Positions 57,941-64,000 of a DNA stretch of 64,000 nt are shown piece after piece. The position numbers were made by a program, and so were the translations under genes. The first letter of the stretch is position 1, and the number at the start of each line of letters is the position of its first letter. Origin of the DNA: Robertkochia flava. Lineage in GTDB: Bacteria > Bacteroidota > Bacteroidia > Flavobacteriales > Flavobacteriaceae. The stretch is taken from assembly GCF_020166515.1 (NCBI RefSeq), contig NZ_JAINZT010000002.1, forward strand, positions 620,001 through 684,000, given 5' to 3'. The notes below the pieces were generated by a model that saw only the letters and a list, made by a program, of their open reading frames with translations, was not told the origin of the DNA and made no database searches.

Positions 57941-58149
57941 TGTTTTTGGGTTTTTATATTCATCGACTTTATAAAAGCCAATCAAAACTCAAAATGTTGT
58001 CCACTTCAAAACGTAGGAATTAGATCACGATACAATATGGTTTTCTTTGAACATTAAGATTTATAGGCTATATTCGACAATATTGAAAAATTATGAGTTT
58101 ACCATCTAATAATGGGGTGTATAAGCCATAAATCAATCTATATAAGAGA

Positions 58150-58157
58150 GTTGTGGG
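58150..58157 (+). other. Left boundary of the cassette array (attI-like or deleted site)
   Basis: G at 58150 followed by TTGTGGGTA. The bases from 58151 are complementary to TACCCACAA at the end of the first unit (58679-58687), so this is the crossover point of unit 1. No attC lies to its left; therefore it is either attI or a deletion end. Confidence 0.65.
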
Positions 58158-58171
58158 TAATTTTAGAAAAA

Positions 58172-58663
58172 ATGAAAAACGTAATTCTTCTTCTAATAAC
58201 TTCAATTTCCTTTTTTGGAAACTCCCAAGCTATAGACTTGAATACAATAAAAGTTAATGGGGAAATTAAGGCTATAACAACCTTAAAAGAACTAAAATCC
58301 AAAATTGAAATTGACAGCATAATATCTGTTCCAGAATTGATGGACATGTCTACCGCCGACTCTTTAATTTATATTGGAAATAGTTATTTTGAGTATACAA
58401 CAAAAGACAACAAATGCATTTCAGCATCCATTGATTTTGATGAAAAAATAAACTCACTCATTATTGGGAGGATTAAACTTGATAAAAGTACTTCATACGA
58501 AAGCTTAAAAGACAATTACCCTATAAGTTGCTCTGAATTAAAACCAATGAAAGTTTATAATGATTCAAAAAATTACAATGTATGTAGTATCCCAATAAAA
58601 GACTCGGAAAAGAATCTCCTTTGTTTTTTCAATAAGGAGAAACTTATTAGGATCGAATTATGA
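58172..58663 (+). CDS. Cassette 1: secreted protein of unknown function
   Basis: A 163-residue protein with a signal peptide (MKNVILLLITSISFFGNSQA). The body has short beta-like and charged segments and three cysteines (KCISA, ISCSEL, NVCSI, LLCFF region) but no family I recognise. The frame is open back to 58112, but that lies left of the cassette boundary at 58150/58151, so the ATG at 58172 is correct. Confidence 0.8.
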   Translation: MKNVILLLITSISFFGNSQAIDLNTIKVNGEIKAITTLKELKSKIEIDSIISVPELMDMSTADSLIYIGNSYFEYTTKDNKCISASIDFDEKINSLIIGRIKLDKSTSYESLKDNYPISCSELKPMKVYNDSKNYNVCSIPIKDSEKNLLCFFNKEKLIRIEL

Positions 58664-58681
58664 GAACAAAGCTAAAACTAC

Positions 58682-58817
58682 CCACAACACTGGCTATATC
58701 TCATGGCTAGTTTCGTACTCCAAAAAATAATAAATTCATGAACGCAACCAGGCCTTCCGTCGTTGTCGGATCCAGCATTAAAACCGCCTGCCACGAGCCA
58801 TAGCCTTACCGTTATGT
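58682..58817 (+). other. attC-like site 1 (short family, 136 bp)
   Basis: R'' CCACAAC (58682-58688), 3-nt spacer, L arm GGCTATATCTCATGGC, AT-rich centre, returning arm GCCACGAGCCATAGCC, 5-nt spacer TTACC and core GTTATGT (58811-58817). The 3/5 spacer asymmetry and imperfect L stem fit the unpaired central spacer and extrahelical bases of attC. Confidence 0.85.
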
Positions 58818-59413
58818 CTTATTTTATGGAACAACCTAAAAACAATAAATTCATCCAAAAATTTGAAAGGAAAGAAATTGATGAATTATTGGATTACGTA
58901 GAAAACCCAAATAGATATCAACCAGAAGCTATTGAAGCAGCCAAATGGCTCTTAGAAATAAAAACTGAGGAAGGTGCAAAAATTGAATCTGAAGAGAAAA
59001 AAATTGAACCTAAAATCATTGAGCCTAAACTAATAGAAAAGGCATTTTTCAAGAGCAAGTGGTTATATTATTGCTCCTGTATTTTGTTATTTGTTTATGC
59101 CTCAATACTAATTTTAGCTTCATTCATCTCCCCTTCCGTTTACACATACATTTGGGCTGTGATTTTTTCAGTCAGTTTAATAGTCGTTATTTCAAAACAC
59201 AAAAGCACAGTCATTTACTTAAAAGTCTTATCAGGATTAGCTTTAAGCGCTTTATTGGCTCAATACGTCATATACTTTTCAAACAATTATTATTTCAGCT
59301 TTGCGGAAGAATTAATTACCCTGCTAAAAGAAGATTTCAAAACGATCTTGCTCTCATTGATAATAATATTCTTCAGTGATCAATTTATAGAAAACAGAAT
59401 GGTGAAAAAATAA
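58814..59413 (+). CDS. Cassette 2: membrane protein of unknown function
   Basis: A 199-residue protein. A soluble N-terminal part (about 1-85) includes a Glu/Lys/Ile repeat EEKKIEPKIIEPKLIEK and is followed by four membrane helices (about 90-195). The start ATG at 58814 is inside the core GTTATGT itself; MEQPKNN at 58826 is an alternative. The longer frame to 58763 runs into the attC site and is rejected. Confidence 0.78.
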   Translation: MSYFMEQPKNNKFIQKFERKEIDELLDYVENPNRYQPEAIEAAKWLLEIKTEEGAKIESEEKKIEPKIIEPKLIEKAFFKSKWLYYCSCILLFVYASILILASFISPSVYTYIWAVIFSVSLIVVISKHKSTVIYLKVLSGLALSALLAQYVIYFSNNYYFSFAEELITLLKEDFKTILLSLIIIFFSDQFIENRMVKK

Positions 59414-59419
59414 AACAAG

Positions 59420-59604
59420 ACATAACTTGAGGCTATACCCCAGTGCTAGATCCTACAAGAATTAGACTATTTTCTTTATATTAATCTCCTGAACAAAAAA
59501 GAAAAAATGCACCTCGTCAAGGTTGCTGGTCTCCTCCAACGCCAAAGGCCAAAAGGTCGCCCAGCTGCCCTATACCGCACCGGTGCATAGCCCGACCGTT
59601 ACCT
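59420..59604 (+). other. attC-like site 2 (long family, 185 bp)
   Basis: R'' ACATAAC, 4-nt spacer TTGA, L arm GGCTATACCCCAGTGC, long centre with a GC-rich half (CCAACGCCAAAGGCCAAAAG), returning arm CACCGGTGCATAGCC, spacer CGACC and core GTTACCT. Same end logic as the short family, but the centre is unrelated. Confidence 0.85.
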
Positions 59605-59610
59605 ACAATT

Positions 59611-60099
59611 ATGAGATTTCGTCTTTTAATAATAGTATTACTCCTTTTTGAAGTTTCTAGTGCTCAGGAAAAATCTTCAGAATTAATATTGGGGAATTGG
59701 AAATATATAAAAACAATAGATTTAAGATCAACGAATGAAAAAAGTAAATATGAAGATATTCCTTGGGACCCTATTGAAACTGATGATCGAACTGGATATC
59801 CAATTAGGACCTTCATTGAAAACGGAGAATTTACTAATTACTACACAAATGATCTTACCGAACAGGGTAAATGGGAAATCCAGGATAGCATTTTAATTTT
59901 AACACACAGAATATCTCCTAAAACAGTTCTCTCCAATAAAGAAAGAAGTGAGAAATTTGTTCAAAAAGGAGCAATAACTAAAGGCTCTGATGGATTAATA
60001 TATCAACAGCCTATTGAAATCAAAATCAAACTTTTAACTAAAGAAAAACTTGAATTAGGGAATGAAAAAACATACTCTATTCATGAAAAAATAAAATAA
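59611..60099 (+). CDS. Cassette 3: secreted lipocalin-like protein
   Basis: A 162-residue protein with a signal peptide (about 1-18, ending SSAQ). SELILGNWKYIKTIDL at the start of the mature protein, then ENGEFTNYYTNDLTEQGKWEIQDSILIL, resemble the strand pattern of lipocalin-like (DUF4923/lipocalin_5-type) domains of Bacteroidota. The start is 11 bp after the core. Confidence 0.75.
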   Translation: MRFRLLIIVLLLFEVSSAQEKSSELILGNWKYIKTIDLRSTNEKSKYEDIPWDPIETDDRTGYPIRTFIENGEFTNYYTNDLTEQGKWEIQDSILILTHRISPKTVLSNKERSEKFVQKGAITKGSDGLIYQQPIEIKIKLLTKEKLELGNEKTYSIHEKIK

Positions 60100-60103
60100 C
60101 TGT

Positions 60104-60242
60104 AGGTAACACTGGCTATATCTCATGGCTAGTGTAGTACTTCTAAAAAAGAAAAAATATTCATGAACCCAACCAGGCTATTCGTTTCCATCGGACGCAG
60201 CATACAACCAGTCCGCCACGAGCCATAGCCTTACCGTTATGC
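60104..60242 (+). other. attC-like site 3 (short family, variant b, 139 bp)
   Basis: R'' AGGTAAC, spacer ACT, L arm GGCTATATCTCATGGC, centre AGTGTAGTACTTCTAAAAAAG (first 20 bases shared with site 8), returning arm CCACGAGCCATAGCC, spacer TTACC, core GTTATGC. Confidence 0.85.
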
Positions 60243-60252
60243 AATAGTTTAA

Positions 60253-61119
60253 ATGAGTACACCTAGAAATCATCATTTTGTCTCGCAAATCCATTTGAAG
60301 CAATTTTTCAATGAAAATGAAGGATGTATTTTCGTTTACGACAAAAATTTAGACAATCATTATAAAAAGACAACAACGAAATCACTTTTTAGCGAAAAGG
60401 ACTTAAATACCAGAAATATTGACAATGAAAAAGATTTCAACTCTTTAGAAAGTGATCTAAATAAATATTTTGAGAAGGACTTTCAAGATAATCTAATTGT
60501 ATTAAAACGTTTTATTACAGATTTAAAACTTACGTCAGAGGTAAATAATGCTCTCAATTATTTTTCAAAATATGGCGTAATAGGTGACTTCAGAACACCT
60601 CGGCATAAACAGCTAATGGCTAATGAATTTAAGGAAGCCATGCTTCAAATTTTTGGTAATAACACATCAGAGTTTAAAGAAAAAATCGGGGACATGCTTG
60701 CCTATAAGAAGGGTGGTCAATTCAGTAATTTAATTGATTACTCCGAATTGTCAGATAAAATATTACAGTTAATGGGTAAATTAATTTTTAATGTCGTAAT
60801 TCCTAAAAATCAAAACGATTATTTTGTTTTGCCAGACTGTTCTTCAGTAACAGAAAGAGCTAAAATTAACACCTATTTTAATCCCGATATTAGGGAAATT
60901 GCCTATATCGGTATACCACTAACTAGCAAAATTTATATTCATGTTTTTTCCGAAAAGATTTTTAAAGAGAAAATACATGTGCCCGCAATTACTTTTGCAA
61001 ATTCAAATGAAGTTAGGAGACTTAACATCATTAGCTATAATATTTGCGAGAGTAAAATTGCTTCCAAAAACCAAAATTACCTTGTAAATTTCATTAAGGG
61101 AATAAAAACCATTGCATAA
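60253..61119 (+). CDS. Cassette 4: DUF4238 domain-containing protein
   Basis: A 288-residue cytoplasmic protein. The N-terminus NHHFVSQIHLKQFFNENEGCIFVYDKN with KKTTTKSLFSEKDLNT is the DUF4238 signature; the middle and C-terminus (FRTPRHKQLMANEF, IAYIGIPLTSKIYIHVF) fit the family. DUF4238 proteins are sporadically distributed and unlinked to a known pathway. It is the largest gene of the array. Confidence 0.88.
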   Translation: MSTPRNHHFVSQIHLKQFFNENEGCIFVYDKNLDNHYKKTTTKSLFSEKDLNTRNIDNEKDFNSLESDLNKYFEKDFQDNLIVLKRFITDLKLTSEVNNALNYFSKYGVIGDFRTPRHKQLMANEFKEAMLQIFGNNTSEFKEKIGDMLAYKKGGQFSNLIDYSELSDKILQLMGKLIFNVVIPKNQNDYFVLPDCSSVTERAKINTYFNPDIREIAYIGIPLTSKIYIHVFSEKIFKEKIHVPAITFANSNEVRRLNIISYNICESKIASKNQNYLVNFIKGIKTIA

Positions 61120-61249
61120 CACTGGCTATATCTCATGGCTAGGTTCTTACTCCAAAAAATAATAAATTCATGAACTCAACCAGGCTTTCCATCTCCGTCG
61201 GACACAGCATTAAAACCACCCGCCACGAGCCATAGCCTGACCGTTGTGC
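61114..61249 (+). other. attC-like site 4 (short family, variant a, 136 bp)
   Basis: R'' GCATAAC, spacer ACT, L arm GGCTATATCTCATGGC, centre with CCAAAAAATAATAAATTCAT, returning arm GCCACGAGCCATAGCC, spacer TGACC, core GTTGTGC. The R'' box overlaps the last codons and stop of the cassette 4 gene (stop at 61117-61119). Confidence 0.86.
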
Positions 61250-61254
61250 GTAAT

Positions 61255-61650
61255 ATGAAAAAACTCATGACCTTAAATAAAATCATCCTATTAGGGGTGC
61301 TAATTACAACATTAATCTCCTGTTCAAAGTCTAGTAAAAACAAATCGAGTTTTCTATATGAAAATGGTGAGAGTAGTGTAGAATTAGTAATCTTGAATGG
61401 AAATGATTTCTTGATCTATGACGTTCCGATCCTTGCCGATTTTAAATGGAAAAAGATCGATCCAAAAACGGGTTCAATTTTAGGAACTGGAATAAAAATG
61501 CTCGGAACTGATAATGGAATCACAAAAACAGAAATAACTGTTCCAAGTAACTATTTGGACTCTGATACTCTAAATATAAAACTGCGTTTTGAAATAAATG
61601 GAGAAAAAACTGGAACGGAATTTAATGTTCCTATTAAAAGCGAAAAATAA
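61255..61650 (+). CDS. Cassette 5: lipoprotein of unknown function
   Basis: A 131-residue lipoprotein with lipobox TTLISCSKSS (Cys at about 25). The rest is beta-rich and may be a small immunoglobulin-like fold (VELVILNGNDFLIYDVPI, FKWKKIDPKTGSI). A GTG inside the core at 61246 would add three residues; ATG 61255 is preferred. Confidence 0.78.
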   Translation: MKKLMTLNKIILLGVLITTLISCSKSSKNKSSFLYENGESSVELVILNGNDFLIYDVPILADFKWKKIDPKTGSILGTGIKMLGTDNGITKTEITVPSNYLDSDTLNIKLRFEINGEKTGTEFNVPIKSEK

Positions 61651-61658
61651 CATACTAC

Positions 61659-61842
61659 GCACAACATCGGCTATACCCCAGCGCTAGACCCTACAAGAAT
61701 TAGACTATTTTCTGTATCTTAATCTCCAGAACCAAAAAAGAAAGAATACACCTCGTCCAGGCTGCTGGTCTCCGCCAACGCCAAAGGCCAAAAGGTCGCC
61801 CAGCAACCCAGACCGCGCCGGTGCATAGCCCGACCGTTGTAA
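61659..61842 (+). other. attC-like site 5 (long family, 184 bp)
   Basis: R'' GCACAAC, spacer ATC, L arm GGCTATACCCCAGCGC, long centre like sites 2 and 7, returning arm GCGCCGGTGCATAGCC, spacer CGACC, core GTTGTAA. Confidence 0.86.
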
Positions 61843-61873
61843 GTAATTTTAAGAAATCAAAAAACAATGAAAA

Positions 61874-62146
61874 ATGGCTGATGGAAGTTTAGCTCAATTT
61901 AAAGCCACCTTAGCCAGGAAAATGGCTAGAAAGGAAAAAGCCCAAGGTAAGTTCGATCGTAAAAAGATGGGCTTTAAAAATTCAGGCGAAAAAGAAGAGT
62001 TTGATTTCCCAAAACTTTCTGAATCTGAATTAGAAAAAGTCAAAAGTGAAATAAGAGAAAAATTCAAGGTAGAAAGGAGAAATAATCTGATTTTACTAGG
62101 ATTAATCGTCATAATAGCAATCGGCATTTTACTCTATATTATTTAA
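61874..62146 (+). CDS. Cassette 6: small single-span membrane protein
   Basis: A 90-residue protein: a basic N-terminal half (KATLARKMARKEKAQGKFDRKKMGF), an acidic patch, and one C-terminal membrane helix (LILLGLIVIIAIGILLYII) ending the protein, so it is probably tail-anchored with the N-terminus in the cytoplasm. No family recognised. Confidence 0.75.
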   Translation: MADGSLAQFKATLARKMARKEKAQGKFDRKKMGFKNSGEKEEFDFPKLSESELEKVKSEIREKFKVERRNNLILLGLIVIIAIGILLYII

Positions 62147-62152
62147 AACTAC

Positions 62153-62288
62153 TTACAACATTGGCTATAGCTCATGGCTAGGCTCCTACTCCAAAAAATA
62201 ATAAATTCATGAACCCAACCAGGCTTTCCATCGCTGTCGGAAACAGCTTTAAAACCGCCCGCCACGAGCCATAGCCTGACCGTTGTGT
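62153..62288 (+). other. attC-like site 6 (short family, variant a, 136 bp)
   Basis: R'' TTACAAC, spacer ATT, L arm GGCTATAGCTCATGGC, the same AT-rich centre as sites 1 and 4, returning arm GCCACGAGCCATAGCC, spacer TGACC, core GTTGTGT. Its L arms pair better than those of the other short sites. Confidence 0.86.
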
Positions 62289-62291
62289 GTA

Positions 62292-62630
62292 ATGTCAATA
62301 ACAATGATAGATCCTAAGAAACTTCTAAAAGAATTAAAAGCAATAAAAGTAAGCCTCCAAATTTATACAGTTCTTTCTCTCGGTTATTTAGTTTTGATAA
62401 TTTTTTATAGCCCTTTTATTCTACTTTTTACAATTTCTATAGTAAGAATGATTCACTTAATCTACATCGGATTCATTCTTTGGTACATTTGGAGTAGATA
62501 CCCTATTGAAAAGAAGGAAAAATGGGATAATACTTGGAAGATCATATTTCTTGGTATAATTGGGCTTTGGCTATGGTTTCCTAATAATGAGGAAAAACAA
62601 AAATTAATCAAAACACTACACACAACATGA
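62292..62630 (+). CDS. Cassette 7: small membrane protein
   Basis: A 112-residue protein with two or three membrane helices (LQIYTVLSLGYLVLIIFYSPFILLF, MIHLIYIGFILWYIWSRYP, IIFLGIIGLWLWF). ATG 62304 is an alternative start. The stop TGA (62628-62630) lies beyond the R'' box, so the last codons are part of the recombination site. No family recognised. Confidence 0.75.
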   Translation: MSITMIDPKKLLKELKAIKVSLQIYTVLSLGYLVLIIFYSPFILLFTISIVRMIHLIYIGFILWYIWSRYPIEKKEKWDNTWKIIFLGIIGLWLWFPNNEEKQKLIKTLHTT

Positions 62631-62803
62631 GGCTATACCCCAGTGCTAGATCCTACAAGAATTAGACTATTTTCTTTATCTTAATCTCCTGAACAAAAAG
62701 AAAAAATGCACCTCGTCAAGGTTGCTGGTCTCCGCCAACGCCAAAGGCCAAAAGGTCGCCCAGCTGCCCCATACCGCACCGGTGCATAGCCCGACCGTTG
62801 TAG
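62620..62803 (+). other. attC-like site 7 (long family, 184 bp)
   Basis: R'' ACACAAC, spacer ATGA, L arm GGCTATACCCCAGTGC, centre almost identical to site 2, returning arm CACCGGTGCATAGCC, spacer CGACC, core GTTGTAG. Confidence 0.86.
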
Positions 62804-62821
62804 CTAATCTTAAAAAAACAC

Positions 62822-63250
62822 ATGAAAAACATCCTACTTACTTTCATTGTCTTGATTCTTTGCCAAAATATTTCAGCACAGATAGACCCTCAAAAAACAT
62901 CTCAGTTAATAGAAGAAAATACAGATTACGATAAAATTGACAGTATCGCTAAAGTTCTAAATCTTAAAGGAGGTGATAAAATTAGAGTCTACACTAATTT
63001 CCAAATAGATAGTACTGGTAAATTGAAAGTACTTAAGGTTAGGGCACCACATAAAGCCTTTGAAGAAGAAGCAATAAAACTATTAAATATGGTTCCTACA
63101 TTAGACCCACCGAAAAGTAAAAGTGGTGAGTTTATAGGTCCAGTAACCTTCTCCATGCCTATTGTCTTTGTAATTGAGACTGAAAAACAAAAAAAGAAAA
63201 GATTAAAAAGGGAAGCACTTAAAACAGAAAAGGAAGTAAAAAAAGACTAG
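62822..63250 (+). CDS. Cassette 8: secreted TonB C-terminal-domain protein
   Basis: A 142-residue protein with a signal peptide (about 1-19, ending NISAQ). About residues 50-115 match a TonB_C domain (RVYTNFQIDSTGKLKVLKVRAPHKAFEEEAIKLLNMVPTL), the same pattern as the chromosomal TonB at 1 kb (GRVYVNFRINKDG...RAPDKSLDEEARRII). It lacks the membrane helix and proline spacer, so it cannot act as a normal TonB; it may mimic or compete with one. The C-terminus is Lys-rich. Confidence 0.82.
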   Translation: MKNILLTFIVLILCQNISAQIDPQKTSQLIEENTDYDKIDSIAKVLNLKGGDKIRVYTNFQIDSTGKLKVLKVRAPHKAFEEEAIKLLNMVPTLDPPKSKSGEFIGPVTFSMPIVFVIETEKQKKKRLKREALKTEKEVKKD

Positions 63251-63390
63251 CTACAACATCGGCTATATCTCATGGCTAGTGTAGTACTTCTAAAAAAGAA
63301 AAAAATATTCATGAACCCAACCAGGCTATTCGTTTCCATTGGACGCATTAATCAACCCGCCCGCCACGAGCAATAGCCTGACCGTTGTGC
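63251..63390 (+). other. attC-like site 8 (short family, variant b, 140 bp)
   Basis: R'' CTACAAC directly after the stop of cassette 8, spacer ATC, L arm GGCTATATCTCATGGC, centre as in site 3, returning arm GCCACGAGCAATAGCC (one A replaces C), spacer TGACC, core GTTGTGC. Confidence 0.85.
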
Positions 63391-63396
63391 TCCATT

Positions 63397-63966
63397 ATGA
63401 AAAAACAGATTCTCATACTTTTTGTAATGCTTAATTCCCTAAACGGACTTGCTTGTACTTGTGAATGGGGAGGGAATTTTATTCGAACTGGTAAAAATGC
63501 GGAATTAGTAATTCTAGTAAAAGTTATTGAAGAAAATTTCCATCTTGACAATGGTAAAACGTTTCCTTCGCTTAAAGAATCAATTAATGAAACATTGAAA
63601 TTAGATTATAAGGGATCTGCAGAAATTTGGAAATCTGTAGATTTAGAAATTTTATCTGTTATTAAAGGTGTCCTGAAAAAGAAAAAAATACGACTATTTG
63701 GTTCATTCGGAGGTGCTGTTTGCAGATCAGGAATTGAACACTTTGAAAAGGGTAACAGTTATTTGATTGCACCAACATTATCTAAGTACTCTTTTGACAG
63801 ATTTTCAAATGAAAAAGAAGATGATTTCTTTATGTGGGGATGCTCAGAAACTTCGATAGAATACAAACCGGAATCCAACACAGTTTACGGGCTAATCAAA
63901 GGGAAGGCTATTAATAGAGAGGAAATTGAATATGAATATGATAAGCTTATAAAAAAAATAACGTAG
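63397..63966 (+). CDS. Cassette 9: secreted TIMP/NTR-like protein
   Basis: A 189-residue protein with a signal peptide (about 1-18). The mature protein would start near CTCEWGGNFIRTGKNAELVILVKV, a CxC start followed by a beta strand as in tissue inhibitors of metalloproteinases and bacterial TIMP-like domains. Later features: GSFGGAVCRSGIEHFEKGNSYLIA and WGCSETSIEY. It may inhibit or bind a protease, but the function is inferred from fold resemblance only. Its stop overlaps the start of site 9. Confidence 0.78.
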   Translation: MKKQILILFVMLNSLNGLACTCEWGGNFIRTGKNAELVILVKVIEENFHLDNGKTFPSLKESINETLKLDYKGSAEIWKSVDLEILSVIKGVLKKKKIRLFGSFGGAVCRSGIEHFEKGNSYLIAPTLSKYSFDRFSNEKEDDFFMWGCSETSIEYKPESNTVYGLIKGKAINREEIEYEYDKLIKKIT

Positions 63967-64000
63967 CACAACACTGGCTATATCTCATGGCTAGTTTCTT
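63966..64000 (+). other. attC-like site 9 (short family, truncated by window end)
   Basis: R'' GCACAAC (63966-63972), spacer ACT and L arm GGCTATATCTCATGGC are visible. R'' pairs with TTGTGCT at the start of cassette 9. The array therefore continues beyond the window. Confidence 0.8.

Follow-up and report, generated by a model that had tools for sequence, protein, structure and literature searches.

An integron-like cassette array in Robertkochia flava with mismatched attC-like sites and a probable integrase other than IntI

The window analysed here, a 64,000-nucleotide stretch of the Robertkochia flava genome, ends in a tandem array of genes and palindromes resembling integron cassettes. The question raised by this locus is whether the array is a remnant of a classical integron, and which enzyme could have assembled it. 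The initial annotation had seen no integrase in the window, and indeed no tyrosine recombinase was found there; it had read the array as an integrase-less cassette cluster (CALIN) or as the distal end of an integron with its integrase elsewhere. Our preferred reading, to which we assign a probability of about 0.82, is that the genome carries three platforms of an integron-like system, each headed by an attI-like site (C6, which is the window array, C8, and C11), and that an integrase encoded on contig C11 acts on them in trans.

Units and head of the window array

Nine units, each consisting of one gene and one site and bounded by GTT, start in the window at positions 58150, 58811, 59598, 60236, 61243, 61836, 62282, 62797, and 63384, with all genes on the + strand, which bears out the nine co-oriented units first proposed. 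A tenth start lies at 64095, just past the window edge, and cassette 10 ends at approximately 64490, so that the array as a whole reaches beyond position 64000. Sites were located with a stem caller and with R1, a covariance model built from 27 sites, mostly of the short subtype. The stem caller recognised all nine window sites, each without a bulge, whereas R1 found seven, including the one that the window edge truncates, and missed those at 61663 and 62624. The parts of the array, with signal-peptide-like and lipoprotein-like N termini judged by eye, are:

58065..58149, +, head of the array; attI-like site whose last bases, CTATATAAGAGA, directly precede GTT; alignable with its attI-like counterpart downstream of the C11 integrase
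58172..58663, +, cassette 1 gene; signal-peptide-like N terminus; no Pfam match; start codon set by eye
58686..58813, +, attC-like site 1, from AAC to GTT; R1 51.7 bits
58814..59413, +, cassette 2 gene; no Pfam match; start codon set by eye
59424..59600, +, attC-like site 2, long subtype; R1 25.5 bits; stem caller
59611..60099, +, cassette 3 gene; signal-peptide-like; no Pfam match
60108..60238, +, attC-like site 3; R1 51.3 bits
60253..61119, +, cassette 4 gene, DUF4238; Pfam PF14022, 68.4 bits, E 8.8e-19
61118..61245, +, attC-like site 4; R1 56.0 bits
61255..61650, +, cassette 5 gene; lipoprotein-like; no Pfam match; start codon set by eye
61663..61838, +, attC-like site 5, long subtype; missed by R1; pattern, stem caller, end pairing
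61874..62146, +, cassette 6 gene; no Pfam match
62157..62284, +, attC-like site 6; R1 59.0 bits, itself among the 27 sites of R1
62292..62630, +, cassette 7 gene; no Pfam match; start codon set by eye
62624..62799, +, attC-like site 7, long subtype; missed by R1; pattern, stem caller, end pairing
62822..63250, +, cassette 8 gene; weak TonB_C similarity, under the curated cut-off
63255..63386, +, attC-like site 8; R1 41.1 bits
63397..63966, +, cassette 9 gene; signal-peptide-like; no Pfam match; start codon set by eye
63970..64000, +, attC-like site 9, truncated by the window edge; whole in L008:7971-8098

PADLOC returned a single weak match for ten cassette proteins (DUF4238 model, E 0.00093, 16.7 bits), and no defence role is claimed.

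The attI-like site reached a local score of 41, while none of the other 2546 window stretches exceeded 28. Since the array begins with such a site, it is apparently a further platform and not simply a CALIN; of the earlier interpretation, the integrase located elsewhere in the genome thus stands, whereas a plain CALIN or distal end does not agree with the array having an attI-like head of its own. Six attI-like stretches were aligned. Among 22 integrase loci read, of which L069, L167, and L171 have an insecure first cassette, the stretch behind the integrase stop ended in ATATAAACAA followed by GTT in seven and in CCAATT followed by GTT in three, the rest being different. At nine secondary arrays of G281, G018, G175, and G036, a set that leaves out the G253 loci L202 to L205, a clear attI copy was seen in four (L197, L198, L206, and L208) and no clear copy in five (L199, L200, L201, L207, and L209). 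Judged by sequence, these stretches probably work as attI.

A 411-residue phage-type recombinase (L008:8646-9881) was set aside as a candidate integrase because it belongs to a different family and lies past the distal end of the array. A second phage-type recombinase is encoded approximately 5 kb from the C8 array. The presence of such enzymes near two of the three arrays of this genome (C6 and C8) counts against the preferred reading, and some link of theirs to the arrays is conceivable.

Structure of the sites and movement of the cassettes

In the window array, the opening 14 bases of each of the ten cassettes can pair with the end segment of the same cassette that precedes the palindrome; 13 of the 14 positions pair in nine cassettes and 12 in one, and all ten share the mismatch at position 11, A against C. 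Across 111 distinct cassettes from this genome and other loci (124 before removal of duplicates), the six bases after GTT matched the cassette's own end at 5.26 positions on average, compared with 2.04 after permutation; the units are therefore no product of chance. At least five of the six bases matched in 94 of the 111, compared with 4.4% after permutation. For attC, R''/R' pairing has been described as extending to 9-11 bases (PMC2727003). A search for cassette chains by end complementarity alone proved too permissive, as shuffled sequences also formed chains, and its opposite-strand control was void, the pattern being its own reverse complement; the stem caller and covariance model were used instead.

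Pairing of the L arms as a hairpin is supported by R1 and by covariation over the 27 sites, with a score of 0.627 for the site arms compared with 0.123 ± 0.019 for shuffled and at most 0.111 for slid alignments, and with two-sided changes in 14 of 16 stem pairs. For site statistics, 141 distinct sites out of 168 were taken from chosen length bands at a score of at least 11.5; the control rate of the caller is known for a loose threshold only, at which Markov controls gave one to six sites per locus and the real sequence was no richer than these at several loci, e.g., L052, L058, L060, L067, L078, L080, and L086. The central spacer is unpaired: positions 1 to 3 after AAC are paired in 1, 46, and 20 of the 141 sites, compared with 131 to 141 for positions 5 to 9. 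An A·C combination occupies stem position 10 in 107 and stem position 15 in 118 of the 141 sites, and the converse C·A occurs at neither. Top-strand A·C mismatches correspond to G·T wobbles on the bottom strand, and the one-sidedness of these positions therefore means fewer interruptions in bottom-strand pairing. Consistently, the bottom strand folds at lower energy in 128 of the 141 sites, by a mean of -3.9 kcal/mol (control, 126 of 282), so that the predicted folds favour the bottom strand, as anticipated for attC. No extrahelical bases were seen in the L'' arm of the 141 sites, where their place holds an A·C pair, with the qualification that the caller admits no bulge and bulged sites would fall outside this set. 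In the classical attCs at three IntI loci of the phylum (L178, L180, and L181) the bulge is present; position 10 after AAC is a bulge in the classical attCs read and A·C in sites of the window type.

Cassette boundaries were also traced by comparison. In all 17 pairs of similar cassettes the sequence following the site was unlike (0.22-0.48), and at the ends of copied cassettes that were read, six left and six right, neighbours switch at GTT in every case. Cassettes thus appear to move as units, with a probable crossover between G and TT, and the comparison favours the GTT crossover points suggested at the outset, direct strain comparison being partial. If the repeats were instead terminators or REP-like hairpins within an ordinary operon and had spread by some other route, their tandem position between genes of one orientation and their good folding would also be explained; that reading offers no role for cassette-specific end pairing, GTT boundaries of copied units, conserved mismatches, or attI-like heads, and we regard this explanation as highly improbable.

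The integrase and its distribution

Contig C11, distinct from the contig of the window array, encodes a 378-residue tyrosine recombinase followed on the same strand by at least 16 sites of the window type; it is the sole member of its family found in the genome. A genome search for a patch-bearing IntI had been suggested; it gave no match above the curated cut-off and led instead to this patchless enzyme. The protein scores 204.6 bits against TIGR02249, for which the cut-off is 265; the alignment is split around positions 181-245, and the IntI patch of approximately 42 residues is missing. The distance from K..KDR to H..RH is 57-59 residues in the patchless rows except two (44 and 63; four rows not measurable), compared with 100 in 20 of the 22 measurable IntI-labelled rows. 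The core exceeds the cut-off of NF040815 (232.9 vs 220 bits) and is preceded by an extension of about 105 residues.

In the tree, 22 of 23 IntI-labelled rows and one unlabelled row form a clade free of patchless rows (SH-aLRT 100). The odd IntI-labelled row outside it, L183, may be a wrong gene. Lacking the patch, lying outside the IntI clade, and carrying an extra N-terminal domain, the C11 recombinase is not IntI. Accordingly, the array and its sites retain their description as integron-like and attC-like, whereas an identity with classical attC and IntI does not hold in view of the A·C mismatches and the patchless recombinase. The integrase could still be a derived IntI that lost its patch in a degenerating integron, the sites having changed afterwards. 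A clade of IntI plus patchless rows is not rejected (AU p 0.591), and the classical bulge and the A·C pair share position 10 after AAC; against this, the IntI clade excludes all patchless rows, which fall among recombinases of other phyla in a quick tree, and we consider such a derivation unlikely.

For the N-terminal extension, Pfam showed nothing above cut-off (DUF5710 in 3 of 22 members, best E 0.02). In the model of an Algibacter homologue, this domain loosely resembles the damage-recognition domain of XPB: XPB chains lead the list with Z 7.1 and an rmsd of 2.2 over 60 residues, with other, unrelated folds at Z 6.7, while Foldseek placed YciH first (E 0.07) and the best XPB rows at E 0.2-0.5; the SMARCAL1 HARP profile matched weakly (E 0.63). 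A published paper credits mismatch binding by XPB to a different part of that protein than the domain matched. For the whole homologue model, IntI4 (2a3v) was the top match, with XerA (5hxy) nearly tied by E-value. Integrase frames of approximately 280 residues, too short for the N-terminal domain, occur in the site-bearing genomes G005, G020, and G033, a point against the preferred reading.

Of the 247 genomes sampled from the phylum, 129 had R1 sites (E <= 0.001), compared with 1 of 114 in a gammaproteobacterial control. Arrays of this kind, little described in Bacteroidota according to the initial annotation, are not rare, and the system appears common across the phylum. With the integrase threshold at E <= 1e-60, sites occurred in 74 of 84 genomes with a patchless integrase, the other ten having none at the site threshold, and in 55 of the 163 genomes where no such integrase was found; one relative, G023, has 33 sites and no integrase found at E <= 1e-40. 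For IntI, the proportions were 32 of 70 genomes with and 97 of 177 without. Among genomes, the sites track the patchless integrase, not IntI; the genomes that have only sites or only the integrase count against the preferred reading. Short repeats follow the integrase at 14 of the 21 loci examined (of the remaining loci, some are truncated at a contig end), and site sequences were read at six integrase loci; in Algibacter, Winogradskyella, Seonamhaeicola, Rufibacter, and other loci, the sites come from the stem caller or repeats only, not from R1. The 13 repeats of Rufibacter are at most candidate sites of this type.

These counts also bear on a classical CALIN, in which an ordinary IntI, now lost or encoded elsewhere, would have collected a cluster of divergent attCs. 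Cassettes and sites are arranged as in integrons, and IntI exceeds the curated cut-off in 70 of the 247 genomes; yet this genome has no such match and its patchless integrase adjoins the same sites, R1 sites do not track IntI, R1 matches only one (L179) of ten loci retrieved around IntI genes from the phylum, and the attCs of L178, L180, and L181 are classically bulged. We therefore judge a classical CALIN to be improbable.

According to reviews, some integrons occur in Bacteroidota (PMC8618304), and a survey from 2022 mentions one complete example in the phylum, that of Salinibacter (PMC9024848). No description of a system combining a patchless integrase with A·C sites was found in the open-access literature, searched without bioRxiv and with few subscription papers; a description elsewhere is possible.

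Proposed mechanism and comparison with known systems

According to the preferred reading, the integrase gene heads the C11 platform, and its product would serve C6, C8, and C11 in trans. A cassette would be excised as a circle, in which its start and end pair as the R stem; the bottom strand of the circle would fold into a hairpin whose shape the integrase recognises, and the hairpin would be joined between G and TT to attI or another site. Recombination itself is inferred. The choice of strand would follow from the A·C/G·T asymmetry, whereas classical attC uses extrahelical bases. In the weakest step, the extra N-terminal domain, where present, might read the folded site in place of the IntI patch.

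A broader view, held tentatively and at somewhat less than even odds, is that cassette capture by folded single strands arose again, or split off very early, with a patchless Xer-type recombinase joined to a repair-type structure-sensing domain, G·T strand marking, and one enzyme serving several attI-headed platforms in trans; the system would be phylum-wide in Bacteroidota and overlooked because searches look for the IntI patch and use classical models of attC. If it works as envisaged, Bacteroidota, among the largest phyla, have their own widespread means of exchanging cassettes, in which the enzyme and the marking of the strand are different, and both the real need for the IntI patch and extrahelical bases and the origin of integrons become testable.

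Integrons are known as IntI systems, mostly of Proteobacteria. The present system shares with them one-gene cassettes in a single orientation, cassette-specific R''/R' pairing, the hairpin with its unpaired central spacer, the GTT boundary, an attI-like stretch beside the integrase, and IntI4 as first structural match, XerA being nearly tied. It differs in an integrase that lacks the IntI patch and, in this genome and in many relatives, carries an additional domain at the N terminus, in A·C/G·T positions where attC has extrahelical bases, in an integrase co-directional with the cassettes and followed at its 3' end by the attI-like stretch (in this genome and the array loci of relatives that were read), and in several attI-headed platforms per genome. 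The window contains no integrase belonging to the array, a CALIN-like trait; unlike a CALIN, the array has an attI-like head, and a matching integrase is encoded in the same genome. Xer proteins resolve dif sites; the integrase core resembles XerA/Xer in scoring above the cut-off of NF040815 (NCBI name, site-specific tyrosine recombinase/integron integrase), whereas the C11 enzyme has the additional N-terminal residues and heads a cassette array. Co-direction of the C11 integrase with its cassettes is shared with the reverse-orientation integrons of Treponema and some Planctomycetes, which use IntI proteins.

Cassette arrays and their attC-like sites

The genome (3.45 Mb, 13 contigs) contains three clusters of attC-like sites, with 22 matches to R1, a covariance model built from 27 sites of this kind: 6 on contig C6, to which the window belongs (C6:620001-684000), 4 on C8, and 12 on C11. 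The main features are as follows.

Window 58150 to 63384: nine cassette starts, each at a GTT; the tenth start lies at 64095
C8:294000-309224 (locus L162): third array of the genome, with four R1 sites; a 424-aa phage-type recombinase lies approximately 5 kb from it
C11 167075-168199, minus strand: recombinase of 378 aa from the first ATG, the best IntI-like protein of the genome

The starts of the nine one-gene units described in the initial annotation were confirmed, and the first 14 bases of each cassette pair with its own end at 12 or 13 positions (13 in nine of the ten cassettes compared, 12 in one). Position 11 of the cassette start is a mismatch common to all ten, with A at the start opposite C at the end. 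The site of the tenth cassette is broken off after AACACCGTATATAA, immediately before a 411-aa phage-type integrase. Pfam searches (E ≤ 0.01) gave no match for seven of the nine cassette proteins of the window (58172 to 63966); by eye, five of the nine N termini are signal-peptide- or lipoprotein-like. To the right of the window on C6, a GIY-YIG-like open reading frame, named by eye (L008:10205-10450, within L008:10126-10510), adjoins a tRNA-Leu-like sequence, part of whose end is repeated on the far side of the frame.

A stem-based site finder, followed by selection on length (bands 117 to 130, 163 to 198, and 210) and place (downstream of an integrase, or in the window array), produced 168 sites, 141 of them distinct with a score of at least 11.5. 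In an alignment of 27 diverse sites (A2), covariation of the 16-pair stem was 0.627, compared with 0.123 ± 0.019 for shuffled and at most 0.111 for slid controls, and 14 of the 16 pairs showed changes on both sides. Column pair 18-116 is a standard pair in none of the 27 sites and pair 13-121 is nonstandard in 24, both being mostly A opposite C. Among the 141 distinct sites, this A/C mismatch occupies position 10 in 107 and position 15 in 118, and the reverse, C/A, was found at neither; the one-sidedness was not created by the site finder, since A/C, C/A, G/T, and T/G received equal small credit. Sites with the mismatch one position further along (position 11 in 32, position 16 in 21) are probably sites with other spacer lengths. 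Within the cassette start, a third A/C occupies position 11, where complementarity is 3%, versus 62 to 89% at positions 4 to 10 and 12 to 14; all three A/C mismatches become G·T on the bottom strand. The predicted attC-type bottom-strand folding was borne out: the bottom strand was the more stable DNA fold in 128 of the 141 sites (mean difference, -3.9 kcal/mol), compared with 126 of 282 random stretches of the same loci (mean difference, 0.02), and folding both strands of four sites showed this preference as well. Some hairpin tips hold palindromes of the CCTGCCTG..CAGGCAGG kind (L051 sites 5626 and 14268; C11:160644), as if small repeats inserted there.

Integrase and attI-like platforms

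No protein of the genome exceeded the cutoff of the IntI profile TIGR02249. The integrase proposed to lie elsewhere in the genome is probably the C11 recombinase, which heads a second array carrying these sites, downstream and on the same strand (16 sites by pattern, with three more added by R1). A 375-aa stretch of this protein scores 204.6 bits with TIGR02249 (cutoff, 265), the IntI patch region 181 to 245 remaining unaligned; with NF040815 it scores 232.9 bits (cutoff, 220). The closest named loci of this patchless integrase are from Bacteroidota, which, together with the initial annotation, is the basis for taking Bacteroidota as the phylum sampled below. The two catalytic motifs are 57 to 59 residues apart in all measurable patchless rows but two, and 100 residues apart in 20 of the 22 measurable IntI-labelled rows. 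A tree from a quick search without bootstrap placed 22 of 23 IntI-labelled rows, one unlabelled row (L137), and no patchless row in a single clade (SH-aLRT 100); for the odd IntI-labelled row outside it, L183, a neighbouring integrase gene may have been chosen instead. A joint clade of IntI and patchless integrases was not rejected (AU test, p = 0.591). In this genome and its relatives the patchless integrase is codirectional with the array, unlike in L163, L164, and L165 (genomes G096, G112, and G215), where it faces away, as in the classical arrangement.

The AlphaFold model of an Algibacter homologue (pLDDT 82) matched IntI4 first (2a3v; E = 7e-18; TM 0.56 on the query), with XerA almost equal by E value (5hxy; E = 9e-18; TM 0.42). 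Folded alone (pLDDT 82), the N-terminal 79 residues matched N-terminal parts of XPB first, at a Z score of 7.1 (2.2 Å over 60 residues) that is not decisive, with YciH/eIF1-like folds close behind. XPB prefers DNA containing small mismatched bubbles over plain duplex in its binding, which PMC7672443 credits to the ThM motif; since this is another part of XPB, a role of the N-terminal integrase domain in reading the folded site is a guess. The N termini of integrases from Spirochaetota and Undinarchaeota (L100, L105) appear similar by eye, and R1 found no sites in their genomes.

In the 22 loci read, 33 to about 180 bases separate the stop codon of the integrase from the first cassette; this stretch ends in ATATAAACAA before the GTT in seven (C11 of this genome, G002, G003, G004, G030, G010, and Algibacter) and in CCAATT before the GTT in three, and the remaining loci differ. 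The left end of the window array aligns with the C11 attI-like stretch at a local score of 41 (next best of 2,546 stretches, 28), and the head of the C8 array, with tRNA genes alongside, at 45. The earlier reading of the window array as a CALIN or the distal end of an integron whose integrase lies elsewhere holds for the probable location of the integrase, but the attI-like left end speaks against a plain CALIN or a distal end. Four of nine secondary arrays searched start with a copy of their own genome's attI-like sequence (in three of four other genomes), so that, judging from sequence, one genome can apparently carry several platforms for one integrase.

Probable cassette movement and the distribution of the system

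A comparison of 131 cassettes yielded 17 pairs of near copies (91.6 to 99.8% identity). Identity past the site is 0.22 to 0.48 in all 17, and before the cassette start it is 0.38 to 0.97, since an adjoining site of this type lies there. In six left ends read, identity starts at GTT, save for 1 to 15 conserved site letters, and in six right ends it stops at GTT; copied units change neighbours at the GTT points where crossover was predicted. In a partial comparison of strains, a cassette on C11 shares 98% identity with one in G003, of the same genus. The matching place in the congeneric G004 (flanks approximately 90% identical on the left, 74% on the right) has no site, and the locus is rearranged, so that a clean empty site cannot be shown there.

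R1 sites occur in 42 of 60 genomes (relatives, own included), 129 of 247 genomes of the phylum, 1 of 114 genomes from the class of an Endozoicomonas genome, and none of 5 others. The patchless integrase was found in 39 of the 60 (E ≤ 1e-40) and 84 of the 247 (E ≤ 1e-60). In the searches of the 247, misses are possible because few candidates were scored per genome (14 for R1 sites, 7 for the integrase). IntI exceeded its curated cutoff in 70 of the 247, more than expected from the published surveys consulted. Among the 60 genomes, sites accompany the patchless integrase in 37 of 39 and occur in 5 of the 21 others, one of which, G023, has 33. Across the phylum, uncorrected for kinship, sites occur in 74 of the 84 genomes that have the patchless integrase versus 55 of the 163 in which it was not found (Fisher p = 6e-17), and in 32 of 70 with IntI versus 97 of 177 without (p = 0.21); three or more sites occur in 42 of 62 patchless-only, 4 of 48 IntI-only, and 21 of 115 genomes with neither. 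G253, a genome with many scattered sites, matches the patchless-integrase alignment seven times at E ≤ 1e-60.

Relation to classical integrons

All ten loci representing the new system (the C8 cluster and nine that carry a patchless integrase) gave R1 matches, which is no test, because the loci were chosen partly for listed R1 matches. Of ten loci chosen by IntI, R1 matched one, L179, whose genome (G064) also encodes a patchless integrase elsewhere. Searches of an open-access library, one of them on the N-terminal domain, gave no description of the patchless-integrase cassette system. The long cassette-end pairing is not new, since R'/R'' pairing of attC extends over 9 to 11 bases according to PMC2727003, which also treats the bulged base and its part in strand choice. 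At IntI loci L178, L180, and L181 the attCs have the form AAC-AAG-GCGTTT-C-AAGCGG or a variant of it, and at about position 10 after AAC a base is bulged; in the attC-like sites this is the place of the A/C. Having neither the IntI patch nor the extrahelical bases, both of which were tested for, the system is outside the integron family as now defined; it is integron-like in anatomy and very likely so in its working.
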